DNA from: Gyrodactylus bullatarudis
Lineage: Eukaryota > Platyhelminthes > Monogenea > Gyrodactylidea > Gyrodactylidae
Direction: 5' to 3'
Length of the DNA stretch: 64,000 nt
Assembly: GCA_012064415.1 (NCBI GenBank)
Contig: SSNU01000227.1
Coordinates: forward strand, 102,736 to 166,735
Positions 17,431 to 45,700 of the stretch are shown piece by piece. Under the pieces are notes generated by a model. The model was not told the origin of the DNA and did not search any database. It saw nothing but the letters and a program-made list of their open reading frames with translations. Numbering within the stretch: the first letter of the stretch is position 1; each line of letters begins with the position of its first letter. The translations under genes were made by a program, and so were the position numbers.

Positions 17431-17511
17431 AGCTCAATGAAACTTGTTCAACAACTTGAAAATCATACTGAATCATCACTCTAGAAAAAACTTGCAACAC
17501 AACTACAGACA

Positions 17512-19425
17512 ATGGTAAACGCAATCGGAATCGATCTTGGAACAACCTACTCGTGTGTAGGAGTCTTTCAGCATGGCAAAGTCGAGATAATCGCCAATGA
17601 TCAAGGAAACAGGACAACTCCTAGCTATGTCGCCTTTACAGATACCGAACGCCTGATTGGCGACTCTGCTAAAAATCAAGTAGCCATGAATCCCATGAAC
17701 ACAGTCTTTGATGCCAAACGGCTCATTGGCAGAAAATTCAACGAATCCTCTGTCCAGAATGACATGAAGCACTGGCCTTTTAAGGTTGTCGAAGTTGATG
17801 GCAAAATTAAAATCCGAGTCGAGTACAAGAGTGAAGAGAAAGACTTCTTCCCCGAAGAAATCTCATCCATGGTCTTGGTGAAGATGAAGGAAACGGCTGA
17901 AGCATACCTCGGCAAGAAAGTAACTAACGCCGTTATCACCGTACCGGCCTACTTCAATGACAGCCAAAGACAGGCAACCAAAGATGCTGGCTCAATAAGT
18001 GGCCTGAATGTTTTGAGAATCATCAATGAGCCCACAGCAGCAGCCATCGCCTACGGCTTGGACAAGCAGCAGAATTCTGAGAGAAACATTCTCATTTTCG
18101 ACTTGGGTGGAGGCACTTTCGATGTTTCCGTTTTGAATCTGAGTGACGGAATATTCGAAGTCAAGTCAACAGCTGGTGATACTCATCTTGGCGGAGAAGA
18201 TTTCGATAACAGGATGGTCAACCATTTCTTGGAGGAATTCAAGCGCAAGTACAAGAAAGACATTAGTCAGAACAAACGAGCCGTCAGAAGACTTAGAACT
18301 GCCTGTGAGAGGGCGAAGCGAACACTGAGCTCAAGCACGAATGCCAACTTGGAGATTGATTCTCTCTTTGAAGGCATCGATTTCTACACCAGCATCACTC
18401 GTGCTCGTTTCGAGGAGCTGTGTGCAGACCTGTTCAGAGCCACATTGGATCCTGTTGAGAAAGCTCTCAAGGACGCAAAACTAGACAAGACCAAAATAAA
18501 CGAAATTGTCCTAGTTGGTGGGTCAACCCGCATACCTAAAGTACAAAAACTACTGCAAGACTTTTTCAACGGACGTGAACTTAACAAATCTATAAATCCT
18601 GATGAGGCTGTGGCCTACGGTGCTGCAGTCCAGGCTGCTATTCTGAGTGGTGACAAAGATGATACGATTAAAGATGTCCTTCTTCTTGACGTTGTTCCAC
18701 TCTCTTTGGGTATTGAAACAGCAGGAGGAGTCATGACTGCTCTCATTAAGCGGAACACCACCATACCTACAAAACAAACACAAACCTTCTCTACTTATAG
18801 CGATAACCAGCCTGGTGTTCTTATCCAAGTGTTCGAAGGAGAACGTGCCATGACCAAGGATAATAACCTCCTGGGCAAATTCGAGCTCAGTGGAATTCCA
18901 CCTGCCCCCAGAGGAGTTCCGCAGATTGAGGTCACCTTTGATATTGACGCGAATGGCATCCTGAATGTTTCCGCCTCCGATAAGTCAACTGGAAAAGCAA
19001 ACAAAATAACCATCTCCAACGATAAGGGTCGTCTCTCCAAGGAAGATATTGAAAGGATGGTCAACGATGCTGAAAAATACAAGAAAGAGGACGAAGCAAT
19101 TAAAGAAAAGATATCTGCCAAAAACTCCCTTGAGAGTTATGCTCTCAATATGAAGTCGTCCATCGAAGAAGCAAAGGGCAATGGCAAAATTTCAGATGAT
19201 GAAGTGAACAAGGTCGTTCAAAAGTGTGACGAGACTTTAAAATGGCTGGAAAATAACCAGTCTGCTGAGAAAGACGAATTTGAGCACAGACAGAAGGAGC
19301 TGGAATCCGTGTGCAATCCGATTGTCACAAAAATTTACCAGCAAGGTGGAATTCCTGGTGGTATGCCCGGTGGAGATACTAAATCGAATGGCGGTTCAGG
19401 ACCAACAATCGAAGAAGTTGATTAA
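17512..19425 (+). CDS. Cytosolic Hsp70 chaperone, full length
   Basis: Intronless, 637 aa, the normal length. The ATPase domain carries [14 protein letters not shown] (about residues 5-18), [12 protein letters not shown] and [13 protein letters not shown]. The linker [14 protein letters not shown] leads to the substrate-binding beta domain, then a complete helical lid ([15 protein letters not shown] to about residue 610), a Gly/Met-rich stretch ([10 protein letters not shown]) and the C-terminal EEVD that binds TPR co-chaperones. It folds and protects proteins in cytosol and nucleus using ATP, with J-proteins and exchange factors. Lack of introns plus an upstream HSE and TATA box indicate a stress-inducible gene. 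A second inverted copy lies at 35206-36876, with a long stretch of sequence identity. Confidence 0.97.
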
Positions 19426-19916: not shown

Positions 19917-22900
19917 ATGACATCTTGCTTGAATTTACGCTGTGTAGAAGACTATGGACGCTATAATGCTGTTCTAAACAATGTCGATATTAAGGTTGAT
20001 GCTAATTCAGCCATTTTAAACGTGGAATCAGTTCTATCATTCGAAAATACTTTTGATAAGCTTCTTGAAGCTGATTTTGAATTTCCTTTTATTGCATCAG
20101 CTTCCATTTACTATTTCGAAATGAAGACCAAAGATAGAACCCTTGTTGCTGAGTGCAGAGGGAAACATGAAGTTAGAAATAATTAATAGTAAATTCTTCT
20201 TCTGTTTAGGCAATGGAGAAGTACAAAAAGGCAGTAAGCGAAGGTCATACAGCTGTCTATTCAAGTGAAGACTCAAATATGGAGGATGTTTTCAACATAA
20301 AACTCGGCAATATACCACCCAAGTCTAAAATTGATATAAAACTATGCTTCACTATGATGGGAGAGACTAAATATACTGAAAATGTTTCTGGTCTAATTAC
20401 CCGTGAGTTAATATTCGTGTTGCCTCAAGTCTTACATCCACGATTCGACCCAATTCCCAATGGTCATGATACTTTTGAGCATAACGCAAACTATGTTGTA
20501 CAGAAAAAATACCAATTCACCTTTGAAGGCAACATGAATATGAATCGAGACATTGAAGAAATTATTTCACCTCACTTGAAATATAAAACAGAATTGATCA
20601 ATGGAAATAGAAGAAAAATGCATGTAAGTCTCAAGAGTCTAAAAAAAGGGTTTACTGATGCGTTTAGAAATTTTTCTTGCTATTTGAGAATATAAAGTCC
20701 TTTTTTACACTTTTACTAATTTTCAAGTTTTCTCAAAACAATTTCTCGTCTTAAATCTTTTGCCATATCTTATCAAGTTTCATCATGATTCTTTCAGATG
20801 AAATAAGAGTGAATCAGTAACTATTTTTATCGCTAATCGGACGTGGAAGAGGGGTTCTAAGCTTTGAGTCTTCATTAATCATTAGGGTGTGAGCTTTCTG
20901 TAAGAAAAAGGATTGAATTTTTTCGTTCTTCATTTTGTTTATCAAATACTTCAGAAAACTGGACGCACATCTCCTACGATCGGGGATTGTCTCTTGCTTT
21001 ATTTATAAGGATTATTGGTAAGTTGATTTTATGGAGGTGAAAATTACCCTCAGTATTGAGCTATCTAAAAGAGGTCTAGATTAACAGACAGTAAAAGTGT
21101 ACATTTTAAATCAGAAATCGAATTTTAAAGATAGCAAAAAAAAGCATTACTTCCTAATAAAATATTCTTTGGTACATATAACTTGGAATGCATTATGAAA
21201 CAATTTTTTTGTCTTATTGAGAATAGGATTCTGAACAAAGTTTTCCGATTCATACTATAAAAATCCGACCGATAAAATACTAATGAGAATCAAGTACTCT
21301 GATTCGTCAAATAAAAAATTTGATAGTTCCTATGGACATTGGCCCTAGGCTTACCAAATTCTAGTTAATAGTAATAGGGTATTTAAGTTGATTTCGTATG
21401 AGAAAAGAGATCATATTCGATCTAGACTTGTCTTTGATTACATCATGGATAAGAATTTGAGGCTTGCTTGATGAGCAAATCAAGATAATAATAGCAAAAA
21501 ATAGCTTTTGTTGGGAAATAGCAAAATTTCAGAAACCAAAACTCACACAATAATATGCTATATATCATTCTGATCAGATTTAATCGCTCATGAACATAAT
21601 AAAAATAGCATTCTTACCGCCCTAATTATAAATTAACTATGAATTAAAAGTATTAAATTTGGTTAGGATTTTTCATCAAAAATTCGATGTTAAAGATTTC
21701 TTGGAATCCTACTCATGTTGGCCGTTTTTACGATTTGGAGAAAAGAAATTTCTTGTCTTATTGTGATCCTGAAAATCAACTTATGATCAATCTCTCACTT
21801 TGAAATCACTAAATATTTTCAGCTAACAGTTCGAAAAAATTGGATTTTTGCGCCAAATCGAAATTTGAAAAATGACCATATTTTTCATTAAAATAATTTT
21901 TTTTCAGATTTTTTTTCATCAAATCTTAAAAGTGGACAAAATGAGCAGGATTCCAAAAAATCGAATTTTTGATAAAAAAGTCAAGGTTTTCATAAAAATC
22001 ATAGATTTCTAACTTCACATCAACTAGCTTTATTGAATTAATTATTTAATATTTTTCAAGATTAAACTCAACGAAGAATTCAAATATAATCATGATATTG
22101 AACTACATGTTCTACTTAAAGAGGAAAGCAAAGAAGCTTGTAATTTGACAGTGTTTCTTGAAGATGGTATTGAAAAAGATGCCTCTGGCTTCCTCTCAAA
22201 AACATGTCTAGCTGCAATATTTGAACCACAAATTCTCGACAGAATCAGAGAAACAAGAAACGAGTTTATTTTCGTTATTGATAGATCTGGGTCAATGAAT
22301 GGCTTCAATATTGAATCTGCTAAGGAGAGCTTATTATTATTTTTGAAAAGTTTACCGAAAAATTCTAGGCTAGAAATTATCGGATTCGGATCAGAGTTTT
22401 CATCTTTATTCGGATCGTAAGTAATTTTTTCGTAATCATCAAAAGTGATGGTATCTTTTAATAATATTTAGTATTGAAAATACGAAAATAACGAGGAGTT
22501 CGTCTACCTCTTTCATTTCTTTTCAAGTTGTCAATAGTTAATAGATGATTACCGAATACAGTATAACCAAATTCTTATTATTTTTTAGATCAGTAGAATT
22601 GACGAAAGAAAATATGGATAAGGCTCTCGAATATCAAAAGAGTATGCTAGCGAACATGGGCGGTACTCAGATGTTGGGAGCATTGAAATGTGCCTTTGAT
22701 AAGCCAGTATTTGGACCAGGATGGCAAAAGCAAATTATTGTGATAACTGATGGAGATATTCATAATTCCAATGAAGTTAAAGCAATGGTTTCTCAACATG
22801 AACTAGATGGGAGAGTTTTCGCTATTGGTCTTGGTGACGGGGCAAGCACATCTCTTGTATCTGGACTAGCAGAAGCAGGTCATGGAAAGGCAAGATTTGC

Positions 22901-25900
22901 TCGAGAACCGTGAGTAAAATTGTCAAACATCTTTCACCAGTAAAAATTTTTTTAATTTCTTAAAGATCTCAACTCCGAAGAGTTGTTATGGAAATTCTCA
23001 ATTTGGCTGTTCAACCTAGAGCTAGTAACATTGAGATTTGTTGGAAATTCAAGAAGAATCCGGAAATCAAAATTCTACAGATTCCATCGAAAATACGAAG
23101 TGTTTACGCAAATGATCCCCTTGTTGTCTACGGTTGCTGTGACATTTGTAAGTGTTTAAAAATAAAGGTTGAATGTTTTTGTTTCTACAGAAATTTATTT
23201 CCAGCCCTAAAAGATGCTGAAGGAACAGTTGTCCTCAAGTATACAATGAATGATGAAAAATTCGAGTTGAACGAATCTTTCAGCTTCCAAACATCAACAT
23301 TAATCGATAACAAGAATAAACCGCTGCATAGAATTGCTTGCAAGACCCGAATCATGGAGTTAAAGAGTGAACTGTTACGAATAAAGGATGAAAATGCAAG
23401 TAAAGATGCTATAAAAGACATTGAAGAGAAGATGAAGTTGGCATCAATCGAGTGTAACGTCATAAGCCCTGTTACTGGCTTCATATGTGTTGATCCTAAT
23501 TCTCGGAATAAAGGTAGATAAACCTCTTGAAAATCAAAATACCTTAGTAATATAGTCGAATTTTGCTATACAGAACTGGAAACAATCAAAGTTATATCAG
23601 CTCCGACAAGAGAATGTTTGTTTAGAGAATGTAAACTCCTTATTTTACTAGTTTATCATGAAACATTCAATTTAGCCGAGCCTATCAATCTGTGTCATTG
23701 TAAGTTTGATCAAATACCTGATTAATATGATGTATAAATTTGTTCCTAAATTCTTTTTCATCATCTGGATTTTAGATCTTGTGAATTCATGAGAGTTACT
23801 AGAAACATTTCGTTCTAGGTGCTTAGGTAATATATCCCACAGGAACGTCTTATTTGGTAATGGATTAGCCCATGTCGCTGAATGTTACAGCTTAATAATG
23901 GATCCCACCGAGACTGGTACGAAAGAAACTCACAAAGCATTTAGAAATAATCTAAGTATGCATATATGGTAGACATATACGCGCGAATTGTAGTCCAATG
24001 CTCAATCCACTCTCCCAACATCCCATGCAATTAGGATTATTTCTATATGCTGAGGCGTACCCCTAAGGTTTTCTAACTAATGAATAGTGCAGCACCTATA
24101 CTTTAAAAAGTTACTAGAAATATTTCGTTCTAGGTGCTTCGTGAGTCTCTTTCGTACCAGTCTCGGTGGGATCCATCAGTAAGCTGTATAAAGGAAATAA
24201 CTGTCCTTTCAGATTTAGCAACGTTTGCATTCCTGGAATGGAAAGGGCCTGTTGGATCTTGGGATCCAGCAATAGCTGATACCAAGTATTGACAGTGTTG
24301 CTATCAGGGAGGGAACCGTTCAACCTACTGTCTTGAGACTCCTCATCGGCGTTGGGACCTTTGGGGGTAAAACAGAATCAATGTTAAAATTCTCCATTAA
24401 GCGTGTTTTGTATTCGAATTCTGTGAAAAGAATGCCGCGCTGCGGCTTGTTATAACAATTCTTTATTTTATATTATTTTGTACAATTTGTTTTTCTGTTC
24501 TTGCTTGACTCTCGAATTCGACTTTAATATCACTTTATAACTTTCTACTCCACTATACTGTGGTTGTTATTTACTTTGATATTGATTATTACTAGTTCGT
24601 CACTATACTGTGACTCACTGGTGTCATATACTGTGATTGCCTATTTTATTTATTTTATTTATGTTTATAAAAGTTATTCGTTAGATTACTGTAACCACTA
24701 TACTGTGATTACTCTTCATAATACTATGCTACTTGCTTATTGAGCGATACTATGCTGTAACATTCAGCGACATGGGCTAATCCATTACCAAATAAGACGT
24801 TCCTGTGGGATATATTACCTAAGCACCTAGAACGAAATGTTTCTAGTAACCTTTGTAAGTATAGGTGCTGGACTATTCATTAATTCATGAGAGTCTTTTT
24901 ACTGATTCTACATTCGGAAGATATTTATACCTAACCTTCTTAGGGTTACTTGAGCATTTAATTATAAATTATACAAATAAGGGTCTATCTGTTGATTTGT
25001 ATGGTTGCATAATACATATATTCTGGATTTAATTGGAAGCAAGCCTTTTCTACAAATAAATCTTATTCAAAGTGAAAATTGGTCGGCTCACTTCATTGCT
25101 ATATTGAAGTTTCTAGATTCAAATCTCTCAATCAATTGAACAAGTATCGAGTAGCATCTTTTTATTCAAACAAGATCTGGTAATAAGGAATAAGCCTAAA
25201 GTGCAGTCTTTGCCATTGATATAATCTCTCGGCTTTACCTTCGAAGGGAAGATAATGGCTCGGATCTTGACCAAGTTTGACGGGTAATAATCTACTGCTC
25301 TCAACCAGGTTCCCCACTTTGTTAGAACTACTGACGAACTACCTATTTCATCAAAAGCGGCCATGTGGTGCCAATTTTCTGCTAGTAAAACCCTGGGGTC
25401 GAAATAAAACGCATTTTTGATGTTTTTAGAATTCTGGCTTTTGCCAGATAAAATATGCTTTTTGAGAAATTTTGAGGCCCTAAATCGTTGATTACCATTC
25501 TAAATACATTATATCTTTAGTCTTTCTTTGTCAGATATATTTGAAAGAAGTAGTAGGATTTTCCATGATACCTAAATTCCTAATTGAAATTTTATTCCAG
25601 ATGCTCCAAGTTAGTTTCCAAAATTCTTAGAGAGTCCGATCTCTGTTTATTTTCGCTGTCCCTGAGCAAATATTGCAGTATTTTAAAGTGTTAATGAAAC
25701 CATATTTTAAATCAATATTTTTATTTCAGTGCCAAGGTTTAGAAGTGAGTCAAAATTCAGGGTCTAACGTTTATATTCATAAATTTTGGTTCTGTTATAA
25801 AAATGTAATTTTTTATAGAATCAAACTTCATGTAGATATATGAAAAATAGATGAATAGAATAGCTATACGTTGTAGGTCTAGAAAAGGGTATACTATCTT

Positions 25901-28900
25901 CATTGAATAGAGGAACTCATGAAATCTAGAAAAATTCAAAAAAGTGGGGATTTGGCGCTAACTTGAGATTTGAAAAAAAGTTCAGATTATAGGCTGTTTA
26001 AAACATATAATTTGATGTTTTCTTGGGTTTTTAACATTTTTAATATACTGATTTGTAAAAAAAATAGTCAATCCATTATCCTTTATCCAGAAGCCAGGGG
26101 TAAGTCGATTGATTCTTACATCAACTAATAACACGAAGCTAGTCCATATAATGTTTTAGAATTTTAGATCATCAAAAATATGAAATTGATGAATATAATC
26201 TTCAAATCTAGCTACTTTCTAATGTTATCTTTCCTATTAAAGATAAAAGATTTCTTGAAAAATGAAGCTTTAGAGTTTTGATTTGGCGCCAAATTCCTTT
26301 TAATGAAGACAAGGAAATTAAAATTGCTAAATATGGTCTAAAAATTAACCTCAGGATCGAGAAGAAGCCGAATTTTGATCATTTGATCATTTTACTACTT
26401 GAAAAATTTATTTGCAATATTTGGCTTCCTAATTTTATCCTCTTTGACCGACCTCCCACTTTTAATTCATGAAAATAAATTTTTCGCATAATGGAAATTT
26501 GATCTTAATCTTACCCATTTTCATCAATTTCTAATTTTTGCGGATGGAGGAATATTTTTGTAAAAATTCAAAAATTCTCAACATCCTATTTACTAGCTTT
26601 ACACCAAAATTATTTCAATTTTTAGAATTAAAAAAATAAAATTAAACTCTCTTCAGCTGCACCAATACAAATACATTATGAATCACAGAAATTCTATAAT
26701 TAAGAATAATGCAATACTCACATATATATGAGAGATGCAAAAAGCAATTCTGCATCTAATAGAGCCTTTTTCATTATTCTAAGACGGAAAAAGATCATCT
26801 TGCTTATAAATTATTATTTTACTATTCAATTTTATGGGACCAGATATAGACTAAAAGATTTGTTTATGTCCAAGATAATTTACCACTGACAAATGTTTTA
26901 CTTTGACGACAATAGTTTAAAAAATAGAAAATTTTATTTCAATCAAATTTTTTGAAAATGAATTCATCAATTCAAAAAAATAAGCTTTTCAATTACTCAA
27001 AAGGGGTTCTTTTACTCATGAAAAAGCTGTAATTGGAAATGATTTGATAAAAAAGTAAACAGCTCATGTGTTGTAGTTAAAGATTAATTACTCCAGTTGC
27101 TTCAGTTCAATGTAAGTTAAAACTAGAGATTTTGAAATTTTAAATTAAAAATAATCTATTTCAGATGCTCCAAGTTAGTTTTTCAGTTAATCATTTAACC
27201 TTATCTAATGAATGGAGATATCTATCTAATCTTTACCAATCAAAAACTAAGAGTATTCTAAAGTTTAAAGTCTCAACCGCCTGAACCCTCTTTTAAAAGG
27301 CGCAAAATCTAAACAGACTAAGATCATGCGATTAAATGTAATTGGAAATTTGAAATTCAAACTATGTCTCGAAAACAGCGGAAGAATGAAGTTAGATCTC
27401 AAAATATGGATCAAAAACATGATTTAAAAATCTTTCAATCTCCCACTTGTGAGATAGAAGAGCTTATTTGTGAAAATCTTGGAATCTCTTTCTTTTTCCG
27501 AAAAATCAGCTCGTCATCAATATTAGCAGTTTTAAACGTATACAGCATTTTAAAGATTAATTCAATGAATATTCTGAAAACAAAGAAACGAAATTCTTCT
27601 TGAATTTCTTTTATTTAGTCCTTACATTGTCTTCAAATTGTAAAATAAGGCCTCATAATGCGGATTTCAGATAATCATCTTAGTTTCGACTAAAAATTTG
27701 AGTTTCACAACCTCATATCATATCTTAGCTTTATCATATACACCTAGTCAATATGAAGATGCGAATTTTAATATATTTATGAATTTTACAAAATTCTAAA
27801 ATTTTTTCATATTTATTATTATAATAATTATCTTTCATTGTGGAAGCAAGTCGAATTAATCCCATGAACTAAATAAAATTCTAATATTCTAGTGGGTAGA
27901 GGTGAGTCGAAAGCTTAAAAATTCATAATATAAAGTTAGATGATATGAAGATGAGAATTTACTTCTAACCCACTAGCAATAGAGAGTCAAATAATATTCA
28001 ACTCACGGTGGCAGATGTAGACGCGTTTCGTCCATATTAAGGCTCGTCTTTACAGTGTACACCATAGCCAGGATTCGAACCCGTGTCTTCAATGTTGTAA
28101 GAATTCGTGGTGATAGAAAGGAATCTTCTGTTTTCAGGAAAAAATTATTAAATTTAGGATCATTCCCCTTAGTGATAAGCAATTAATTCAAATTTTTCTA
28201 TTTCCCACAATAATAACGAATTTCTGTGAATTTCTGCAGCCCAATTTTAATTCTTTGTCTAATGCTGATGTCGAATATCTTGATTTAACTGCTCCAAATT
28301 TTTGAAATCGATAAAATTTTTGAGCTCAAAAGTTGAAATAGTGGAAATTTGGTGCCTATTAGAAGTTCGAGAAACGGCATAATTTTGGTCAGATTGAATT
28401 TTTTTCATTATGTAATTCAGAAAATAATTTTTTCCTGACTTTTCGAAGAAAAATATTGAGTTTCTTGTAAAAAAAGTAAGTTCTCAATGTCAATTAGGTT
28501 TACATCTGAGGAAACCTAAACAAGTTACGTTTGTCCGGATTTTCAATTAAATTTTCGCTTTCGCTGATACCGTATTACCAACCAACTGCGTAGATTTAAT
28601 CTTAGTTTTTCTAGCAGCTAGTCAATGTAAGTTAAATAAAAAGCTTCATAGCAGGCTTTAAAATTGCCTTTTCATAGTATCATATGAACAAAATCACAAA
28701 TTTAAATTTTTTATAATCAAAATGTAGAAATTACAGTATTTCAGACATTAGACCTACTAGAAAAGTGTGGTCACAGGTAATCACTAATTAGGATATCTTA
28801 CAACTCACGAGAGTACTCACTTTTCTGATAAAATTTAGTACTCAGATCGTATACGACCTCTAAATCAACAGTTTTAGGCGATCGCTGCATTTTAACGGGT

Positions 28901-31900
28901 TCGAAGGGGTTAATTGATAACCTATTAGGGTGTTAGCCTGCTTAAACATTATACAATTAAACTCTAGAGAAGGCTTGTTATTTACTTACAAATATGTAGG
29001 ATTTCTATACGATATAACAAATCTAAACCTAATTTATAATTATTTTTTGTTTATACTTGGTGTAAAAATTTGGCGATTTGGGTATTTTCGAAATTTTTCT
29101 GAATCTGAAAACCCTAGTTAAAATTTATTTTGAAGTTTTCGAGGCGTAATATAGAGTTTTCTCATTTTTTAGCTGGACCATGTGAGTCTTAATATAATCT
29201 ATCGAATCTTTAAGTAATAAAATTTTTAATTTAAATTCATGAAACCGATTATGTATACTAAATATGCATTGCGTATGAGTCATATTCATTAACTAAGGAA
29301 TTAGGAAGTATTGGGTATGAACTGATTGTAACATTTATTCATTGCGCGTTTTCGGATAAATAAAGAAATGATTAAAATTTTAAAAAAAGAAAAAATTTTT
29401 GTTTCAATTTGTTTTTAATAATTATAAATTATAATCAGGGGTAAATTGGTGAGAATGGAAAATTTCTATTGAATGATTTACAAACTAGATAGATTCACGG
29501 TCTACTTCAGTCTTCACTTTGGGTTGTGAATAAGGTATTATTATTACAGATTCAGAAAAATTGATTTTTTTTTTCAATTGAATTTTGGTTAATGCAAATT
29601 TTTATCATCTGGCAGTGGATTGTTGTTGGTATCTTTAAGAAAATATTTTGAATTGGTTTACAAATTTTAATTCTAAGTAGAATGAAGAAAAATTGCTTGT
29701 TTGAAATTCTAGAACTATTAGTATAGGTCAGATATGTATGAAATTTTAAAGTTGTTCCTCCTCAAATTCGATTTAATAAAGCTTTTTAAGATTTTTAAAA
29801 TGGTCTATTCTACATTATCTCTATAGTTCAATACCTTGCTCAGACTTTGATCCTGAATCCAAAGCTTCGTGGGCTTCCTACACAGGTACAGTATCTAAAC
29901 CATAGGAAAAAATTCGTGCGCTATTCACCAATGAATTTTTAAAAAAGGTCTTGATTCTGATATCATAACATGGAAAATTAAATCTTCTTATTAAAGAACT
30001 TTTATAAGTCTCTTTTCATTAATAAAAATTAAGTCTGGGATTTAATATTCTAAAATCTGCACAAAATGAAATACAATGAAATTCCAAAAGTTTTATATTT
30101 CTTTTACACATATTTATTATAGAATCTTTAATTTATATCCTCAGCTCTCGAAAGTAAACGAAAAAAATTTATCCTCTCAAAACATAAAAAATTAATGTTA
30201 TCTTTTTTTAAGCTAGACAAAGTGAGTTCTTCTAAAGTTCAACAAATGAAAATCTACGATTAACCCTTCATATTGCATTGTTCGGCTATTAGAACACTTT
30301 CTCGAACGATAATACTTAAATAGTTTGAGATAAATATTGACAAACTTCTTCAAATACACTGTAAACTCACTAAGTGGATCTCAAAACTAGAATTTCTCAA
30401 ATGATTTTATGAAGTGATTCATTTTTGAAATTATCTATTTTAATTATTAAGAGAAAACTTACCTTATTCATAGAACTCTATGGTGAGCTTCATTCAAGAC
30501 AATACTTGATAATATAAATTAAACTGTAATTGAAATGAATGAAACTTTAAATTCCAGATATTCATATGAGTATAGGTTAGTATTAGACCTCGAAGAAGAT
30601 TTAAAAACATTTACTCTAAGTAGAAAATATCCTAAAATCTCAAAGTCTCCATCTTGCTAAAACTGAAAATTTATTTTCGACATCAGAAATAAATTTTGAT
30701 TTATCATATTTAGAAAAACAACAATATTATTAAAATTTAAACATTATTTGTTTTAAATCACCAAATAGTAAAAAAATTAATTACAGTTACAAAGAATTGA
30801 ATAATGAAATTGATTTTCAAAATTTAGAATCCTTCAATAGACCTGGATTATTATCTGAAGACAAGCTCCCTCTTAACAGTGATGTTGTTAATCATTTCTT
30901 GTATCTTCGTAATCAAGGAGATAGGAAAAAGTATTATGCCAACGTTTTCTTATAATTACCCCGAATATATAGGCTCTGAATATTTAATTTTTTGGCAAAT
31001 TCTTTTGTTGTGAAAAAATTTATTTTTTGTCTACATACAAAAGGGTTGAAAAAAATTTCAAGTATCAGAGTGTAATGATCAGACTAATATCAAGGGTATA
31101 ATGTCACATATTAGGTCTAAATTGAACTACACAAAAAGTCTTCTCTACCTCCAATAATTCCAGAATGTTCTAATTAGATTTCTTGAATGGCTTATTTACT
31201 CATTATTTTGTTATTTTGACTATTCAACCATATTAATAGAATCTATGTATTGCAAAATTATCCAGAGAACTATAAATTTAAATTTTTAATAGAAATTTTA
31301 TAACAAAAAATATTGCATTTATTAATTCAGATTATGAAAATATTTATTGACAGCTCAATAAAAATAAAAATTGTTTATTAACAGTCTTTTTGAATAAAAT
31401 TTAATAATTTATTCTTTTTCTTTTCAGATGTTCCATGTAAGTATTACTGACTCTTTGAATATCTTTAATCTCAGATAGATAATTTCTAGATTAGTTATCC
31501 GAATTGTTTAAATTGTAATAAGAGTATTCTCTAAAATTGAATATTCTTTTAAGCTTATGATAGTGAGTTAGGAGAAATTTATTCTTGTCATAAATTAACC
31601 TCTTAAAATATACTACTATATACTATAAGCTTTATTACTAAATATCCACTTGACTTCCAAATCCTCTGAGCCTCTCATTCGAAACTGAAAATTTTTTGAG
31701 AATTTTTTTCTTCAAATCGTAAGATGTGGCAACATGAGTAGGATTCCAAATAATTTCTGAAAAAATTGAGGTTTTCATATCAACCAGCTTTATGTTGACT
31801 TCAGAATATAAAGTTTAGATGAATAAAATAAATTCTGATATACAGAGATTCTCTTATCCTGGTAGGAGAAATTGATTCAAGATTTATGATTCAACCATAA

Positions 31901-34900
31901 GGTAAAATATATATCATTTAAAATCGTTCTAAAAATACTAAACTTTGGATTTAATTTCAACTGAGTTATTTAGCAAAATGGTAGGATTAAACTTATTTAT
32001 ATTATCAATAGTGGAATGTATAAAGAAAAGTAAGTCCATTGAGACCTAGATTTCTTCTTAGAATAATATTCAATGGATATTATTCATCTAGAGGAATAAT
32101 AATTACAGAAATATGTTTTAATTTTCAGATTCAAGTAAGGGATTTATTAATAAACGAACTTAAAGATATATGTTACAGTGATTCTGAGTCTGTAGACTCT
32201 CTAGTAAATAAGGGAATCTGGAACTCGGTATTCAGATTCCCTGATTAGCTATTCCCTATTTACCAGCTAGTAACAGTGAATCTGGAAACCTTAGGAATTC
32301 TGCAGAATCCCTGGGCAACAATCAGTGAGTCTGCAGAATTAGTATTGTTAATTTTAACTACTAAGTTTTTAGCCCTAAATTTCCATTGGTATGAATAAAA
32401 TACACTGCTCTTGGTCAATGCTAGTGTTTAACCGAATACACAAGTATTTTCAGAATTGAAGGATAAGTTTAAAATAAAGTTAAAAAGAAATTTTCTGAGT
32501 CTGTTGGTTATCGGGCTTATTTTATTTAGCTCAAATATAGAGCCAGAGCTTCATATGATTTGACAGCAGTGACGAGTTAATGCGAATTTTGAATAACGGC
32601 GTCTTACACTATTCTTGATTTCATAACAGATTTTCAAATAGATTAATGTTATCACAAAAACATTGAAATACATTCATGCTGCTTCTACATGAATTTAAAT
32701 ATAAAATTTTAAGTTTTCAAATGAATAATTATAATTAGTTTCCAGAATCCCTAAGAGTCTGCAGACTCACTGATTGTTGCCCAGGAATTCTGCAGAATTC
32801 CTAAATTTTCCAGATTCACTATTACTAGCTTATAAATAGTGAATAGCTAATCAGGGAATCTGAATACCGAGTTCCAGATTCCCTTATTTACTAGGGAGTC
32901 TGCTGACTCACATAAGTTTTCAGAATCCCTGTAGCATATATATTTAATATATTCTAGATATTTTGACACGTTAGTTAATCATGCTAAAGTTAAATTATTA
33001 ATTTTAGTATCCCATTCCATTCAACTTTACGGGTTTTTACAAATGGTTTTGGTCCAGAATGGTTTTCAGTCTATTTTTACATCTAAAAGTCACAATTTTC
33101 AGCCTAATCTAATGAAAACGGTCATCCGACATGAAATCATGAAATTTGAGATAGCAGGCATATTTTTTCTTAGTCATCCTGTTTTTATAAGGACCCTTTT
33201 TTAACCTTTAAAGACTCACTGTGCCTTTGAAAGCGCGTATCAATTAAGCAACTCATTATTAATTACACGGCGTGTCAATTTTTTTTCGATCTGGAGGTAT
33301 CAAAATAAACTAAAATGATCCTGATCCGAAATTTGACGCAGATTCTGTATCTGGTCTCAGAATTCACGAATTGAATTCAGTTTTGGAGATATTCGCAAAA
33401 AACGAAAATTTCGAATTTTCCCAAAACTGGAGTTACTAATTGATCAAAATCATTAAGAGAAATTAACTAATTGCCCAACAACTGGATATCATTAAATAGA
33501 AAATTAAATTCTGCGTCGATTGATGTATGTATGAACGGGATAAAGAGAAAAAATTTGCGCAAAAAATAAAATCAAGTAAAATTTATTGAAAAAAAACATA
33601 AAATTTGAGTGAAAATTTGTGTTTTCAAATTAACTCACGGCTTCAAATAGATCAAATTTCAAAATTTTCTTGGACAACCTAGATCGAAATTTTCTCCTCT
33701 TTCGATTAAGACCACTCTCAACTCTGTCAGACATCGTCTTCAGGTGTAAAATTGGACTTTTTAAGATGTTGTTCAACATTGGTATTTCTATTTAATATAC
33801 TGTACCATATATTGTATATCCATATTGTAAACTCTTTTCGGCAATTAAAAAATCTTTTGAATAATATATACAGAGAACATTTAGAAATAATGAATTAGAT
33901 TAACGAAATGAAACTCACTTCATCTTTTGGGCTCAAAATGTCCCATACGAATCAAGTCTAGACAATGCATGGCATGCTTTACAACACAACCAATCAGGTT
34001 AGAGGTCAAACTTAACTATGAGCCAATGAAATAGGCAGTTTTTTTCGAGTTTAATCATGTGATTTTCTCAATTAACTCTTTCTTTATCAAATCATGGATA
34101 GACCTTTTTAGTATAGGAATTATTTTATATTTTTGAAAGATATGAAACTCTGAAAATTATATTGGAAAAAATTTATTATCATGAAAATGAATTTAGAAAA
34201 ATAGCTGATTTTCATATTACAAGCATCTTAAGTGAGGGTTGAAAATCCACAATTAATTGAAAAAGAGCTGTTAAACTTCTATCTTTCAAAAATATAAAAT
34301 AAAAATTGAATCAATTGAAAATATCATGAATTCTTGTAGAAAATGTAAACACCACTTAAAAGTAATAGGCTTTAATTTCGCAATTTTTAAACTTTTTTGT
34401 ATTGGCATCACTTCTAAGAAAAGGTTTGATCTAAGAGAGATTTCACACCTAGAATTCTTATTTATCTAGGCATCAGTGATTAATATTCTAAACTTAATAG
34501 ACGTATAGAAGAATATTAGAACTAAGAAAAATTTCCTCTTTCAAGCGCAATGGGATAATACGGAGCAAGATGAAATTAAAGAGATTAAAGATGATTTGCT
34601 GGCATTGATTGATTATCAAAATTTCGATGGAACATGGACACTAAATCAAGATCTGGGCGCATTGTTGAATTCTATTAATAAGTCGAAAAGTGTGAAAGAT
34701 CTGATGGACCTAAACAAAACTGGTAGTAAGTATTTCAAAAGAAGCCCATGAATTTTTTTAATTTCCAAAATTAGTCCTAGATAATTCTAATCAATACTTT
34801 TCTATAATATATAGTCGATGCAGACATATTCTTAACATTGCTAATTATTGCTGTTTTCAATGTAAAGTTTGCTGATAAAGAAATTGAATGGAGCATGATT

Positions 34901-34993
34901 GCGGATAACGCTAAGGAAGCTGTGATGAGAGAAATTTCGAAAGAAAGGTTGGACGAAACCTTGGAACTGTTATCAAATGAAATAAGGAAATGA
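19917..34993 (+). CDS. VIT-VWA protein A with a microexon-coded linker
   Basis: Main exons: 19917-20171, 20210-20623, 22061-22416, 22589-22909, 22966-23147, 23205-23513, 23574-23630, then microexons from 23676 to about 32134, then 34546-34725 and 34815-34993. The VIT-like N-terminus (about residues 1-225; ILNVESVLSFEN, ADFEFPFIASASIYYFEMK) precedes a VWA domain with a complete MIDAS: DRSGSMNG, the Thr of GGTQML, and ITDGDI. A beta-rich region follows, ending ISPVTGFICVDPN. The C-terminal domain has DYQNFDGTWTL and KEIEWSMIADNA. This is the VWA5A/ITIH/PARP4-type architecture. No signal peptide is seen, so it is probably intracellular; the function is unknown. With the eleven better-supported linker microexons after the one at 23676 the product is about 796 aa. 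Introns up to 2.9 kb hold repeats and retroelement relics. Confidence 0.85.
20624..22060 (+). other. Intron of VIT-VWA A with dispersed repeat
   Basis: This 1.4 kb intron has no counterpart in gene B, where the flanking exons are fused. About 21720-22030 belongs to the dispersed palindromic family of 62164-62580. It was either gained in A or lost in B; gene C also has an intron here (59188-60849). Confidence 0.65.
23676..32134 (+). CDS. Microexon array of VIT-VWA gene A
   Basis: Each candidate is preceded by AG and followed by a GTRAGT, GTTAGT or similar donor, is a multiple of 3, and is read in phase 1: 23676-23699 (24 nt), 25601-25609, 25730-25744 (15), 26091-26099, 27165-27173, 27893-27901, 28618-28626 (or 12 nt from 28615), 29173-29181, 30213-30221, 30558-30575 (18, weaker), 31428-31436, 31554-31562, 32012-32029 (18, weaker), 32129-32134 (6, weaker). 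All without a stated length are 9 nt. Spliced in order they contain no stop and join the exon at 34546 in phase. They add triplets such as YAP, KAR, DAP, MGR, SGP, SRQ, DVP. The 9-mer ATGCTCCAA occurs twice (25601, 27165) with the same flanks, indicating exon duplication. Genes B and C have related chains. Confidence 0.65.
23795..24850. mobile_element. Retroelement relic with inverted 96-nt ends
   Basis: Arm 23795-23890 is an exact reverse complement of 24755-24850. A second inverted pair lies inside: 23899-23940 against about 24137-24178 ('ggatcccaccgagactggta'). The terminal motif 'ttcgttctaggtgctt' recurs at 24123 in direct orientation. About 24114-24400 on the minus strand encodes a short gag-like peptide (DSNTVNTWYQLLLDPKIQQA) with a frame break near 24365. 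About 24550-24760 has six loose copies of 'actatactgtga'. This resembles rearranged LTR-retroelement material, not an intact element. It sits in an intron of VIT-VWA A. Confidence 0.6.
25128..25400 (-). pseudogene. hAT-type transposase fragment
   Basis: A minus-strand frame reads AENWHHMAAFDEIG, then TKWGTWLRAVDYYPSN. The 'T(R/K)WGTWL.A..YY..N' block is typical of hAT-like transposase proteins in many invertebrates. Only about 90 residues remain, with no catalytic region, so this is a dead fragment in an intron of VIT-VWA A. No inverted ends were identified. Confidence 0.5.
27741..27965. repeat. Fragments of the palindromic MITE family
   Basis: About 27741-27800 ('tatacacctagtcaatatga', then 'aattttacaaaattct') matches the left end of the element at 62164-62580. 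About 27925-27965 repeats the same end once more. Intronic. Confidence 0.5.
27995..28100 (-). repeat. SINE-like fragment with a pol III B box
   Basis: On the minus strand, 28071-28081 reads GGTTCGAATCC, a perfect tRNA-type B box (GGTTCGANNCC). It is followed by a stretch containing 'gacgaaacgcgtc' (about 28017-28031). A related copy of the tail lies at 45490-45565. No A box or tRNA fold could be found, so this is a SINE remnant and not a tRNA gene. Confidence 0.55.
29320..29665. repeat. Dispersed repeat, copy 2
   Basis: Second copy of the element at 6745-7025, same orientation and diverged, in an intron of VIT-VWA A. Confidence 0.6.
32166..32940. repeat. Large imperfect inverted repeat
   Basis: The arm at about 32166-32340 is the reverse complement of about 32756-32940 with scattered mismatches and small indels, separated by about 415 nt. 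Within the arms are smaller palindromes, such as 'gagtctgcagactc' (32753-32767) and 'aattctgcagaatt', and repeats of 'gggaatctg'. The composition is distinct from the surrounding DNA. It sits in the last large intron of VIT-VWA A. Confidence 0.75.
33290..33365. repeat. Short dispersed repeat, copy 2
   Basis: Second copy of the repeat at 16870-16945. Confidence 0.6.
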
Positions 34994-35205: not shown

Positions 35206-36876
35206 TCAGTCGACCTCTTCTATTGTTGGTCCTGAGTTTGAGTTTGAATCAACATCTGGATTATCACAAGCATTCATCTTTGCTCGTAATGCTTCGTCTT
35301 CTTCCTTGAACTTTTCAGCATCTTTGACCATTCGTTCGATCTCTTCCTTGGAGAGACGACCCTTATCATTAGAGATGGTTATTTTGTTAGTTTTTCCAGT
35401 TGACTTATCAGAAGCGGAAACATTCAGGATACCATTTGCGTCAATATCAAAGGTGACCTCAATCTGCGGAACTCCTCTTGGAGCAGGTGGAATTCCACTG
35501 AGATCGAATTTGCCCAGGAGATGATTTTCATTCGTCATGACACGCTCTCCTTCGAACACTTGGATAAGAACGCCAGGCTGATTATCGCTATAAGTAGAGA
35601 AGGTTTGTGTTTGTTTTGTAGGTATGGTGGTGTTCCGCTTAATGAGAGCAGTCATGACACCTCCTGCTGTTTCAATACCCAAAGAGAGTGGAACAACGTC
35701 AAGAAGAAGGACATCTTTAATCGTATCATCTTTGTCACCACTCAGAATAGCAGCCTGGACTGCAGCACCGTAGGCCACAGCCTCATCAGGATTTATAGAT
35801 TTGTTAAGTTCACGTCCGTTGAAAAAGTCTTGCAGTAGTTTTTGTACTTTAGGTATGCGGGTTGACCCACCAACTAGGACAATTTCGTTTATTTTGGTCT
35901 TGTCTAGTTTTGCGTCCTTGAGAGCTTTCTCAACAGGATCCAATGTGGCTCTGAACAGGTCTGCACACAGCTCCTCGAAACGAGCACGAGTGATGCTGGT
36001 GTAGAAATCGATGCCTTCAAAGAGAGAATCAATCTCCAAGTTGGCATTCGTACTTGAGCTCAGTGTTCGCTTCGCCCTCTCACAGGCAGTTCTAAGTCTT
36101 CTGACGGCTCGTTTGTTCTGACTAATGTCTTTCTTGTACTTGCGCTTGAATTCCTCCAAGAAATGGTTGACCATCCTGTTATCGAAATCTTCTCCGCCAA
36201 GATGAGTATCACCAGCTGTTGACTTGACTTCGAATATTCCGTCACTCAGATTCAAAACGGAAACATCGAAAGTGCCTCCACCCAAGTCGAAAATGAGAAT
36301 GTTTCTCTCAGAATTCTGCTGCTTGTCCAAGCCGTAGGCGATGGCTGCTGCTGTGGGCTCATTGATGATTCTCAAAACATTCAGGCCACTTATTGAGCCA
36401 GCATCTTTGGTTGCCTGTCTTTGGCTGTCATTGAAGTAGGCCGGTACGGTGATAACGGCGTTAGTTACTTTCTTGCCGAGGTATGCTTCAGCCGTTTCCT
36501 TCATCTTCACCAAGACCATGGATGAGATTTCTTCGGGGAAGAAGTCTTTCTCTTCACTCTTGTACTCGACTCGGATTTTAATTTTGCCATCAACTTCGAC
36601 AACCTTAAAAGGCCAGTGCTTCATGTCATTCTGGACAGAGGATTCGTTGAATTTTCTGCCAATGAGCCGTTTGGCATCAAAGACTGTATTTGAAGGGTTT
36701 CTAGCCTCCTGATTTTTAGCAGAGTCGCCAATCAGGCGCTCAGTTTCTGTGAAGGCGACATAGCTAGGAGTTGTCCTGTTTCCTTGATCATTGGCGATTA
36801 TCTCGACTTTGCCATGCTGAAAGACTCCCACACACGAGTAGGTTGTTCCAAGATCGATTCCGATTGCGTTAACCAT
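35206..36876 (-). CDS. Hsp70 lacking most of the lid
   Basis: Intronless, 556 aa. ATPase domain and substrate-binding beta domain are complete ([39 protein letters not shown]). After [19 protein letters not shown] the chain runs straight into a short Asn/Asp/Ser-rich segment ([15 protein letters not shown]) and EEVD, so about 80 lid residues (helices B-E) are absent and the frame stays open. Lidless Hsp70 would bind and release substrate faster but still recruit TPR co-chaperones. It is inverted relative to 17512-19425 and practically identical over about 1.1 kb, yet its flanks differ. Upstream 'tataaaaagagtatata' (minus strand, about 36938-36955) can serve as a TATA box; only a poor HSE (GAA...GAA near 37013-37026) is visible. 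Convergent with VIT-VWA A. Confidence 0.93.
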
Positions 36877-38401
36877 TCTTAATTCTCAGGTATTAGAAAC
36901 TATTTTAAGCTAGAGGAAGTAGGTCTTTTGAATATATACTCTTTTTATAATAGATATTGAATCGTTAACATTTTTCATTACATTATCCAATGCCTTCTTA
37001 ATTCTAAATACCTAGAAGCTGTTAGAAATCAATATCGAAATTCAGAAGATCATCAGAGCATTGTATTTTGCTTTAAAAGTTATCATAAATTTTATAATTT
37101 CTATTCTGAATTTAATCTCATAATGATCGTTGCACTAGAATTTTTTCTAGCACGATATTGAAATTATAAATTTATTTATATCAAATTCAAGGGATATTTG
37201 ACCCATTTTTTAAATTAACAGAATAGAACTTGGTTTGATTCTGAGCTACGAATCTAAATGAAAAAATGCGTCTGTGCCTCTATGTTCAAATTGTTTCTTT
37301 ACTAAAAATTAGTAAAAGTAGATTTAATTGGAATATAACTGTTATAGAATTGAATATATATCTTGAATTTAAATATGTGTTTTATTTGTAAATAGATAAA
37401 CAAACGTTCACCTGGAGGAAACCTGGTTCAAACGGACCGAATGAAAATCCCGGGAAAATTAATTCAAATAATAACAATAACTCTTACTTTCCTAACACAG
37501 ATCAAAATCAAGTTAACAATCCTAAATAAATAAAGTTTATTGTGTTACTATTAGTTGTTATCAATAAATATATAACAATAACCAACCTATTTCTAATTTT
37601 TATTGAAGATTTCAGATTCCATTATGGAACAATTTTCCTATTGTTTCTTTACTAGCTTTCTTTACATGCTTAGGGATACCTCTGATTAGAAGACTTTGTT
37701 AACATAATAGACTATTATTAATAGTGGATAAAAGGTTTTCTATGATATAGCCTCATTGATGTTAATGGTAGTTATAGCCACTCTAAGAAAAAATTGAATT
37801 AATCTTTAACGGGCAGTAGTAGCCGTATAAGAAATTTTGGAAAAAAAAAATAGCATCACCAGAATCAACAGGAAAATCTTATGTACATATCAAAAATTCA
37901 GCAAATTTTTTTGCACAGTGCAAGGTAAAATGTGTGATTTCTCCTCATCGAGTTACGCAAAATAAAAGACTAGCACTTATCCCTTGTCACTAGAATAAAA
38001 TTGGCTGAGATCAAGCAGTTCATAAAAAAAAATAATTGCTCCAAGTTATTCAACCATTTTCACAAATCATCATATACAAAAACTATCGTCCATGATCATA
38101 ATCAACATGATTTCTTATTGAATGATAGAAATTAGTTATAAATAATTTCATGAATTTCGTCCTATATAAAAAATTGTTTTGTTGTCATTTGGATCCTACT
38201 TGTGAAATCTATAAAATCACCAACTTCCAGGGAGAGACGCTAAATGAACTATTCATCAGATAATTAATTGAAAGAAGTGTTACATCAGAGGGGAAAAATA
38301 TTTATTGAAAATTAGCTCTCTTATTTAGAATGAAAAGAAAAATAAAATCTCATAAAGAGTGAAACATGTGTAAAAGTTGAAAAGCAATTCAAATTTTAGC
38401 A
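36877..38401. other. Intergenic stretch between Hsp70 and SCaMC
   Basis: Promoter side of the lidless Hsp70 and 3' side of the carrier gene. It is AT-rich and contains only one possible exon (37396-37529). Confidence 0.5.
37396..37529 (+). CDS. Orphan terminal exon, unknown protein
   Basis: After 'tttgtaaatag' a phase-1 frame encodes KQTFTWRKPGSNGPNENPGK, then an Asn-rich tail (NSNNNNNSYFPNTDQNQ) to a stop followed at once by 'ataaataaag'. GC content rises within it. No upstream exon on this strand was found after VIT-VWA A ends at 34993. It could be an alternative 3' exon of that gene (same phase), part of an unrecognised gene, or chance. Confidence 0.3.
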
Positions 38402-42778: not shown

Positions 42779-45700
42779 ATGTCTTCTTGCATTACCTTTA
42801 GAAGTAAAGATGACTACGAATTCTACGAAAGTGTTCTGAAAGATATTGATGTCAAGATTGAGGCTCATTCAGCTATTCTGAATGTTGAATCTGTACTAAA
42901 ATATGAAAACAAATACGAAAAACTCCTGGAAGCTGACTTTGAATTTCCTTTTATCGCCTCAGCATCAATTTATCATTTTGAAATGAAAACTAAGGATAAA
43001 TCTTTAGTTGCTGAATGCAGAGGTAAAGAAGAGGTTTGTTGATTTACATTATTACATTATCATCATTCAATGTTGAATTTTAAAAATACGATAAAATCAA
43101 ATCTCTTTAAGAGATTGGTACATCCATTTGTTTAATTTTTCTCTCTTTTCATTAGGCAAAAGAAACTTATGATAAAGCGGTAGAAGATGGCCATACTGCT
43201 GCTTACTCATACGAGAGTCCGGAAATGTCAGATGTTTTTCGCATAAGCCTTGGAAATATTCCTCCCAAGTCCGAAATTTTGATCAAAATTTGTTTCACAA
43301 TGATGGCAGAAACATCATACATTCAAAAAGAGAATGGTTTTGTCAATAGGGAAGTTGTTTTTGTACTTCCCCAAGTTCTTCATCCAAGATATAATCCAAA
43401 TCCGGAAAACACTGTTTACAACATGAATGCAGTATATGCTGTTCAGAATAAATACAAATTCTCTTTCAAGGGAGATTTAAACATGGATCGTGAAATTGAA
43501 GAAGTTAAATGTACCGGCATGAAAATTAAGACTGAATCTATTGAAGGTGACAAGAAGAGATCAAGAGTTAACCTCGATGAAGAATTTGACTACCAACATG
43601 ATGTTGAATTGCGTGTGATTTTGAAAGAAGAAACCAAAGATGCTGGCACATTCAAAATGTTTGTTGAAGAAGGCAAAGAGAATGCTGGTTCTTGTCTGAG
43701 CAAGCCTTGTGTAGCAGCTGTATTTGTTCCTCCTGTTCTAGATAATGTTAAAGAGACAAGGAATGAATTCATATTTGTTATTGATAGATCCGGTTCAATG
43801 GACGGTCCAAATATTGAATCGGCCAAAGAAAGTCTGTTATTGTTCCTTAGAAGTCTACCAAAAGATTCTAGGATGGGAATCATTGGATTTGGTTCAAGTT
43901 ATTCTTCTCTCTTTGATAAGTAAGTTGGCATTTGTGTGTAAATTGTATTCACAAGGTTGCATGATGTCTGGGTGGGTATCGATTTTTCAAGCCTTACCTT
44001 CTATTGATATTGCATCACATAATGATCTTTGAATCTTGTAAAGATTTTACTCATTCCAAGGCAAACATGAAAATAGTTCTCAACCAGCTTAGGTTTTGAA
44101 AGATGAAAAGATCGGTTTTGTATTACTATCAAGGTTTTCTTTAGATTCAATAGTTTATATATTAAAATAAAGAGATATTGACAAAAAATGTATATATGGG
44201 TAGGCTAATTGACAAAAAGTGTATAGTGTTTTCACAAATTCAATAGATGTATACGGTCTATTATCACATGTCAAATAGTTTTTTTCACAAAATGTATTGG
44301 TGTGTTTGAGATTTTCAAAACATTAATAGGTATTTTCAATTAATGTATACTTTGTAGAGGTTTTTACAAAACTTAAATAGGTTTTTACAATTATTGTATA
44401 CATTTTGGAGGTATTTACTAAAAATGAATAGGTTTTTCCTACATCATACTCCTCCCTCCTAAAAAAACCGAAATAGATTTAAAAGGTTTTCCATTTGCGA
44501 AATAGCTATAGAGCTTACTTAAATAATACCTGAAAAGATTTCAATGCATTATTTCAATGGGAAATTGACATAAAATGTATAAATAGGTAGAAAGTGGAGT
44601 ATGATGTAGGAAAAACCTATTCATTTTTAGTAAATATCCCCAAAATGTATACAATAATTGTAAAAACCTCCACAAAGTATACATTAATTGAAAATACCTG
44701 TTAATGTTTTGAAAATCTCGAACACACCAATACATTTTGTGAAAAAAACTATTTGACATTTGATAATAGACCGTATATATCTATTGAATTTGTGAAAACA
44801 CTATACACTTTTTATCAATTAGCCTACCCATATATACATATTTTGTCAATATCCCTAAAATAAAATAGAAATTCTCAACTCGTCACTGAAAATATTTTTA
44901 AAATTTTAGACCAGTGGACTTGACAGAAGAAAACATGAATAGAGCTCTTGATTACCAGAAAAATATGAAAGCTGACATGGGAGGTACAGAAATGTTTAAC
45001 GCTTTGAAACATGCCTTTGAGACGTCAGTTTCTGCACCTGGCTGGCAAAAACAAATTATCCTAATTACTGATGGAGATATTTACAATTCGAATGAAGTGA
45101 AGAGTCTTGTTGCTCAACATGAAATGGACGGAAGAATATTCGCCATTGGTCTAGGCGATGGTGTTAGCACCTCGTTAGTTAGTGGTCTGGCTGAAGCCAG
45201 TCATGGAAAGGCAAGATTTGCTAGAGAACCGTAAGTTCAATTACTATACTTGTTCTTGTAATTTACCAATTGTTTCAGTAAACAAATAATTCTATTAATA
45301 ATATTTATTTTTGTACTTTTTATTAAGCTTTTCACTTGATAATTAATTCATGTTTTTCATTAGGGTTTTTGGTGACGAGAGATAAGGGCTCAAGTCTTTT
45401 AGTATCTCTGATTGGATGCGGAGAAGTCACACATCTTACCTTAGAGATAAGACTCAGCGTGTATCTAATTTAGTAAAGAATCAATCCAAACATGTATGGC
45501 AGGCATAGACGCGTTTCGTCTCTATTGAGAATCTTAAGTATACAATTGAAAGCATAGAAAAAAAACAAATAATTCTGTTCTCTGTTCCCACTGATAATTT
45601 ATTTGGATTTTTAGAAAAAAAGTCCAGAAAATCTCCTGAAGTGCTAACCAAATTGAGAATCTTTCGGGGGTTTTTATAACTGGAATAAATTTGAAAAAAT

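Follow-up and report, generated by a model that had tools for sequence, protein, structure and literature searches.

A chain of candidate phase-1 microexons in the linker of a VWA5A-type gene of Gyrodactylus bullatarudis

Known microexon genes and the VWA5A family

The closest described systems to the locus reported here are the micro-exon genes (MEGs) of schistosomes, in which about 80% of the coding region lies in symmetric exons of 6-36 bp and whose products are nearly always secreted or membrane-anchored (PMC5825161; papers are cited by their PubMed Central (PMC) identifiers and as far as the available excerpts of each go). New schistosome MEGs have been described with two long flanking exons and 79% of their microexons symmetric (PMC4671649), and MEGs contain no known domains and seemingly occur in tapeworms too (PMC4413821). 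In this work we analyzed a window of 64,000 nucleotides (nt) of the monogenean Gyrodactylus bullatarudis (contig SSNU01000227.1, positions 102,736-166,735 of the forward strand; assembly GCA_012064415.1). It contains a VWA5A-like gene, P1, whose VWA body and C-terminal domain are, judging from the sequence, very probably joined by a fast-evolving linker of about 14 real exons, all in phase 1 and 6-24 nt long, of which eight have 9 nt.

Micro-exon gene organization has been proposed as a neodermatan gain, in a paper that cites a tapeworm paper and apparently the Gyrodactylus salaris genome paper (PMC4398949). Very small symmetric exons arranged as in a MEG have also been described within a gene of a conserved family, Schistosoma VAL-6 (PMC4350168). 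The VWA5A/BCSC-1 family, which includes human VWA5A and Dictyostelium Vwa1, is composed of a VIT domain, a VWA domain, a less conserved stretch and a C-terminal domain; the latter is common to human VWA5A and Vwa1 and absent from ITIH1, and overexpression of Vwa1 led the authors to propose an autoinhibited state (PMC10539598). The excerpt of that paper makes no mention of linker exons of 6-12 nt.

P1 shares with MEGs a chain of symmetric 6-36 nt exons between longer exons, long introns and the flatworm lineage (PMC5825161, PMC4671649, PMC10526429). Predicted exons of this kind number 14 in P1, six in its paralogue P2 and five of the six linker exons in its paralogue P3. Unlike MEGs, P1 has a VIT-VWA body, lacks a signal peptide as judged by hydropathy and carries 6.7% of its coding sequence in microexons (3.7% in P2 and 8.0% in P3). 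Since P1 departs from MEGs in secretion, domain content and coding share, its likeness to them would be one of exon design only. VAL-6 is a venom allergen-like gene for which recombination with a MEG was hypothesized, whereas here four paralogues have a phase-1 linker. Aphid bicycle and megacycle genes resemble P1 in having many small exons of one phase (PMC9168663), but bicycle genes are in phase 2, act as insect gall effectors and encode an unrelated protein, while the predicted linker exons of P1 to P4 are all in phase 1. The original prediction had regarded a run of this many 9-nt exons as extraordinary for a von Willebrand A protein; it may well be unusual, although the wording is too strong in view of MEG chains of 6-36 nt (PMC5825161) and of a second chain in this genome, on contig C252 (see below). 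The P1 chain would be a variant of such known architectures that is set in a conserved gene of the VIT-VWA type; no microexons in VWA5A appeared among the literature matches listed, and monogenean microexon chains may already be in print.

Flatworm microexon chains have so far been tied to secreted proteins without known domains, and this one would lie in a family found across eukaryotes. Exons as short as 6-12 nt fall under the length that the ordinary recognition of exons copes with easily, and a dozen in a row is a test of how they are found by the spliceosome. Since gene predictors easily miss such exons, the linker may be mis-annotated in other flatworms. The annotated VWA5A proteins of Schistosoma and Spirometra have linkers of similar composition.

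The microexon chain of P1

The exon model of P1, with its predicted microexons, is as follows:

19917-34993, plus strand: P1, VWA5A-like gene (VIT, VWA, linker, C-terminal domain), model of 804 aa, family assigned via identity to P2
19917-20171, plus strand: first long exon of the model
23574-23630, plus strand: last exon before the chain, 57 nt, phase 1 in and out
23676-23699, plus strand: microexon of 24 nt, phase 1, length and order as P2 46477
25601-25609, plus strand: microexon of 9 nt, ATGCTCCAA, donor GTTAGT, identical 9-mer at 27165
25730-25744, plus strand: microexon of 15 nt, donor GTGAGT
26091-26099, plus strand: microexon of 9 nt, donor GTAAGT, begins with AA and gives a stop if the preceding exon ends in T
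27097-27111, plus strand: microexon of 15 nt, donor GTAAGT, alternative 6-nt form from 27106 possible
27165-27173, plus strand: microexon of 9 nt, second copy of ATGCTCCAA, donor GTTAGT
27893-27901, plus strand: microexon of 9 nt, donor GTGAGT
28615-28626, plus strand: microexon of 12 nt, tandem AGCAG acceptor, contains the 9-mer 28618-28626
29173-29181, plus strand: microexon of 9 nt, donor GTGAGT
30213-30221, plus strand: microexon of 9 nt, donor GTGAGT
30558-30575, plus strand: microexon of 18 nt, donor GTTAGT
31428-31436, plus strand: microexon of 9 nt, donor GTAAGT, top score in the chain
31554-31562, plus strand: microexon of 9 nt, donor GTGAGT
32129-32134, plus strand: microexon of 6 nt, donor GTAAGG, weakest accepted (11.5 bits)
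32958-32969, plus strand: possible additional microexon of 12 nt, donor GTTAGT, new to this analysis and outside the model
34546-34725, plus strand: first exon of the C-terminal domain, phase 1
34815-34993, plus strand: final coding exon of the model

The 14 candidate exons of the chain (24, 9, 15, 9, 15, 9, 9, 12, 9, 9, 18, 9, 9, and 6 nt in order; 162 nt in sum) were all in phase 1 at both ends, contained no stop and ran on into the exon at 34546 without a shift of frame, in agreement with the earlier claim that the candidates read through in order without a stop. The components of that claim were also recovered: seven 9-mers exactly between AG and GTRAGT (26091, 27893, 28618, 29173, 30213, 31428, and 31554), two 9-mers with a GTTAGT donor (25601 and 27165), and the candidates of 24 nt (23676), 15 nt (25730 and 27097), 18 nt (30558), and 6 nt (32129). 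A GTRAGT donor was present in 10 of the 14. The site at 28618 was reinterpreted: in the splice-matrix scan described below, the 12-nt form 28615-28626 scored 15.5 and the 9-nt form was absent from the 32 candidates listed, so that a 12-nt exon is more likely there than the 9-nt exon first proposed. The P2 counterpart at 46873 has the same tandem acceptor and is itself ambiguous. The two copies of ATGCTCCAA have the same donor, and their 60-nt flanks on either side are 38-40% identical, which fits an old duplication of which only the exon and its splice sites were kept.

The candidate at 32958 was left out of the model because its flank touches an inverted repeat. The last intron of the chain contains an inverted repeat with arms at 32185-32337 and 32758-32910 (153 nt, 93% complementary, 420 nt apart). 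Nested inverted repeats also lie at 23794-24885, with arms of 103, 65, and 61 nt; they recur in the other sequence examined and carry a false site at 24134.

The pattern AG-N9-GTRAGT was found seven times on the sense strand of the 10.8-kb linker region and once on the antisense strand, and zero and one times on the two strands of the 38 kb of the window outside the three paralogues. Dinucleotide shuffles (n=300) gave a mean of 0.19 and a maximum of 3. Twenty 10-kb control windows from five other contigs gave 15 occurrences over 40 strand-windows (maximum 4), that is, 0.41 expected against the seven seen (Poisson 2.6e-7, or 4e-6 with six if the 28618 site is a 12-mer). Far fewer than one chance occurrence had been estimated originally from base composition, and both backgrounds gave an expectation below one. 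When lengths of 3-60 nt were combined without an acceptor filter, 53 sense and 47 antisense matches were obtained; since these totals are similar on both strands, the excess sits at 9 nt.

Because the 9-mers had been chosen beforehand, a length-blind filter was used (pyrimidine-rich acceptor, 6-45 nt, GTRAGT). It retrieved 12 sense candidates in the P1 linker, 11 of them multiples of three, and two antisense candidates, both multiples of three. In the controls it retrieved 42 candidates in 400 kb, distributed 18/13/11 over the three remainders with no clear preference (maximum 5). Candidates were also scored with splice-site matrices trained solely on the long exons of P1-P3 (23 acceptors and 19 donors). 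At a threshold of at least 13 bits, the P1 region gave 21 sense candidates (15 multiples of three) and four antisense ones, and a further 26 came from 70 kb of strand-sequence elsewhere in the window. Twelve of the top 17 sense candidates came from the chain, 13 of whose exons lie within the scanned stretch; the remaining five were three overlapping candidates at the repeat-borne 24134 site, 32958, and 31846.

Paralogues and related linkers

Genome searches covered the 77.3-Mb assembly of 471 contigs. The window contains two paralogues of P1, and a whole-genome search with one P2 exon retrieved P1-P3 plus a fourth copy, P4, on contig C467 (51% identity). The models and their linker exons, all in phase 1, are the following:

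42779-48734, plus strand: P2, exon model of 787 aa
46477-46500 (24 nt), 46784-46807 (24 nt), 46873-46881 (9 nt), 47145-47156 (12 nt), 47208-47216 (9 nt), and 47596-47604 (9 nt), plus strand: P2 linker microexons
54066-61546, minus strand: P3, exon model of 799 aa
57468-57497 (30 nt), 57226-57261 (36 nt), 57133-57171 (39 nt), 56480-56515 (36 nt), 56143-56178 (36 nt), and 54977-54991 (15 nt), minus strand: P3 linker exons

Candidate linker exons of 54, 18, and 12 nt were placed in phase 1 in P4 with the incoming phase assumed, the frame then being open to the stop. The C-terminal domain after the linker is present in all four genes. In the P3 model, the exon at 54761-54925 (minus strand) ends without a GT donor, and a GC-AG intron placed three bases further along would agree with the phase.

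P2, the one protein used for the profile scan, matched Pfam VIT with 86.8 bits and VWA_3 with 81.2 bits. Its ten best protein matches were all from flatworms, seven of them named VWA5A (32-39% identity, 75-98% query coverage), and relatives of solved structure include PARP4 and the inter-alpha-trypsin inhibitor heavy chains. The motif DRSGS, which we take to be the metal-binding site, is retained in P1-P3. The maximum 9-residue hydropathy over the first 38 residues of P1-P4 was 0.71-1.04, indicating no signal peptide by this simple test, which is not a predictor; the highest 19-residue values were 1.83 (P1), 1.60 (P2), and 1.35 (P3). With VIT followed by VWA, VWA5A relatives and no such signal peptide, P1 is, by its predicted protein, a VWA5A-type (VIT-VWA) gene of the intracellular clade. 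Over 605 residues, the VIT-VWA parts of P1, P2, and P3 were mutually 58.5-64.6% identical, and the linkers only 12.9-35.5% over 31-54 alignable residues; this difference suggested that the linker changes fast.

The peptides predicted from the microexons were compared with the linkers of VWA5A homologues (of the best 120, 60 had both boundary motifs and 58 of these were long enough). The internal residues of 13 P1 microexons (the 24-mer excluded) had a mean log-odds of 0.59 per residue against the composition of the 58 linkers, compared with a mean of -0.32 for 964 random open 9-mers from the control windows, and 20,000 draws never reached the P1 value. P2 scored 0.91 (0 of 20,000 draws as high) and P3 0.01 (p = 0.004). 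Read in the other two frames, the P1 microexon letters gave -0.24 with two stops and -0.03 with five stops. Since phase 1 scored highest, the peptides fit the VWA5A linker composition best in this phase.

Variation in the linker was also found in the database models of relatives. The six listed VWA5A isoforms of the fish Triplophysa rosa differ only in the linker: one downstream piece starts with R or S depending on the preceding exon, and another follows as Q or K. Such varying junction residues are only possible at phase-1 junctions. Rather than three residues, the pieces comprise between 12 and about 17, apart from one of two residues. Isoforms X2 and X5 of Mytilus edulis VWA5A differ by 31 residues in the linker. 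Based on this variation in fish and mussel, a variable phase-1 linker is probably old, and the flatworm would have cut it into very small exons. The proposal that the linker can vary is thus supported in kind.

Readings of the chain and other chains in the genome

That the chain lies far beyond chance and is real as an architecture of the sequence is established by the counts above, and it is most likely made of real exons. Several points weigh against this second step. The choice of linker exons in P2, P3, and P4 was made by eye and already looked for this consensus and phase. Length-blind filtering gave five candidates in the P2 linker (four multiples of three) and four in that of P3 (all multiples of three), but with the matrices at 13 bits or more only two of four in P2 were multiples of three (three of three in P3). 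Similarity of donor flanks among microexons within P1 and between P1 and P2 was not significant as a set, with three pairs at nine or more matches of 14 against 1.2 expected (p = 0.12), and exon-by-exon homology is not claimed on this basis. The contrast in composition partly reflects the higher GC content of coding DNA, and the linker set is redundant, including isoforms and paralogues. Finally, the best antisense candidate scored 18.5, above every exon of the chain except 31428 (21.4), and the repeat-borne false site at 24134 scored 17.3. Such antisense and false sites show that a high score alone is no proof of an exon.

If the exons are real, they could be constitutive, giving one linker of fixed length, with their small size a side effect of introns gained and exons duplicated; we regard this as nearly an even call. 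It is favored by the strong donors in most of the chain and by the stops that skipping would create. In P1, 14,336 of the 16,384 possible skip subsets stay open, and the 2,048 that create a stop are those in which 26091 directly follows 23699 or 23630 (T|AA). In P3, 50 of 64 subsets stay open and 14 do not. Free skipping would therefore not be fully protected, and the earlier view that any subset can be skipped harmlessly holds for the frame, which is always kept, but not for stops, which arise in one subset out of eight. Against a fixed linker stand the listed isoforms of fish and mussel, which vary in the linker (database models, not RNA of this animal), and P2, which is open in all 64 subsets, a property of its sequence and not an RNA observation.

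The chain could also be a combinatorial cassette array producing many linker variants, as claimed for schistosome micro-exon genes, a reading we hold tentatively and consider somewhat short of even. Every exon is symmetric and in phase 1, and the linker isoforms of relatives point the same way. Starts with AA, AG or GA, which give a stop after T, were found in one of the 20 P1 and P2 microexons and in four of six in P3; these are low counts, and they depend on the residues encoded as well. Moreover, it is not obvious why a protein lacking a signal peptide should need variety of the antigenic type. Substantial combinatorial use of the P1 microexons is somewhat less likely than not.

It is very improbable that the sites are decayed or due to chance, in which case P1 would splice from 23630 or 23699 straight to 34546, leaving the 9-mers as intronic coincidences or relics. 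Such a join would keep the phase, and false or antisense candidates with equally high scores do exist, but coincidence or decay does not agree with seven 9-mers against 0.41 expected, 11 of 12 length-blind candidates being symmetric, a match in composition in phase 1 without a stop, and three paralogues of similar design. An origin of the chain from a repeat or transposable element with splice-like sites, to which the 18 repeat-like segments and four inverted-repeat pairs of the region and the strong false site in one of these repeats might point, was rejected as hardly credible, since all 14 microexons lie outside repeat-like segments, with the window and 220 kb of other sequence as the basis of comparison, although one flank, that of 32129, overlaps one.

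With the 14 candidates taken as real exons, strong donors would offset their tiny size and allow them to be spliced into the mRNA. The linker would then be a rapidly changing tether, probably a disordered one, that connects the VWA body with the C-terminal domain and sets the reach of this domain to the VWA body or to partners; such contacts could be tuned, among other ways, by altering the length of the tether. The chain may have grown by duplication of tiny exons, two of which share one 9-mer, while repeats entered its introns. Since symmetric phase-1 exons can arise, disappear or be left out at little cost, some alternative inclusion of P1 microexons is likely.

Over the whole genome, the strict pattern YYYYYYNYAG-N9-GTRAGT had 49 matches, three of them in the window (one in P1 and two in P2). 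The corresponding counts were 19 for 10 nt, 38 for 11 nt, 48 for 12 nt, 24 for 13 nt, and 52 for 15 nt. The mean count was 50 at multiples of three and 27 at other lengths, and some matches were copies of repeats. A reversed-pattern control gave more matches at every length (62-98 versus 19-52); it was judged a poor control because of its different word content, and neighboring lengths were compared instead. This comparison suggests that the genome contains many symmetric microexons.

Seven of the 48 matches for 12 nt lay within 70 kb on the minus strand of contig C252, two of the seven being copies of one sequence. In C252:508001-516994 the length-blind filter gave 21 candidates on the minus strand, 19 of them multiples of three, and none on the plus strand. 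Read in phase 2, the 19 symmetric candidates were free of stops over 37 internal codons; phase 0 gave two stops and phase 1 five, four of the latter due to one 9-mer that is present four times. In the adjoining 8 kb all eight candidates fell on the minus strand; seven were symmetric (15, 9, 27, 15, 15, 30, and 6 nt) and free of stops in phase 2, the one phase examined there. With looser donors there was less order in C252:508001-516994 (nine of 16 symmetric, two with stops), and C252:490001-497000 gave three candidates versus one on the other strand. This second locus looks like a MEG-like candidate gene, and the VWA5A chain is probably not the only microexon chain in the genome. The apparent phase 2 of the C252 chain is that of the aphid bicycle genes (PMC9168663), presumably by convergence. 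We consider it unlikely, although conceivable, that the VWA5A chain is a microexon cassette array yielding hundreds to thousands of linker variants and one of several chain loci, through which MEG-like architecture would reach ectoparasitic flatworms and conserved-domain genes, beyond the secreted proteins of blood flukes.

The chain at C252:500001-516994 (minus strand) is denser than that of P1, with candidates of 6-30 nt, the four-copy 9-mer and a 12-mer repeated nearby, and lies close to the contig end; the longest stop-to-stop frame in one of its two stretches is of 102 codons. P1 itself is flanked by two HSP70 open frames facing each other, at 17485-19425 (plus strand) and 35206-36885 (minus strand), the second being shorter (559 versus 646 codons of open frame) and retaining the EEVD end. 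As a marker of lineage HSP70 was uninformative, its matches coming from animals, plants and fungi alike, and COX1 served this purpose instead. The mitochondrial COX1 gene of the assembly (C13:9972-11309) contains 12 in-frame TGA codons and is open under the flatworm code; codes 9 and 14, the flatworm codes, scored best (399.2 bits), followed by code 4 (390.1) and code 5 (379.5). Its product was 89% identical to a Gyrodactylus albolacustris cluster and 83-84% to Macrogyrodactylus, Cichlidarus, and Paragyrodactylus, the other listed proteins being at most 71% identical.

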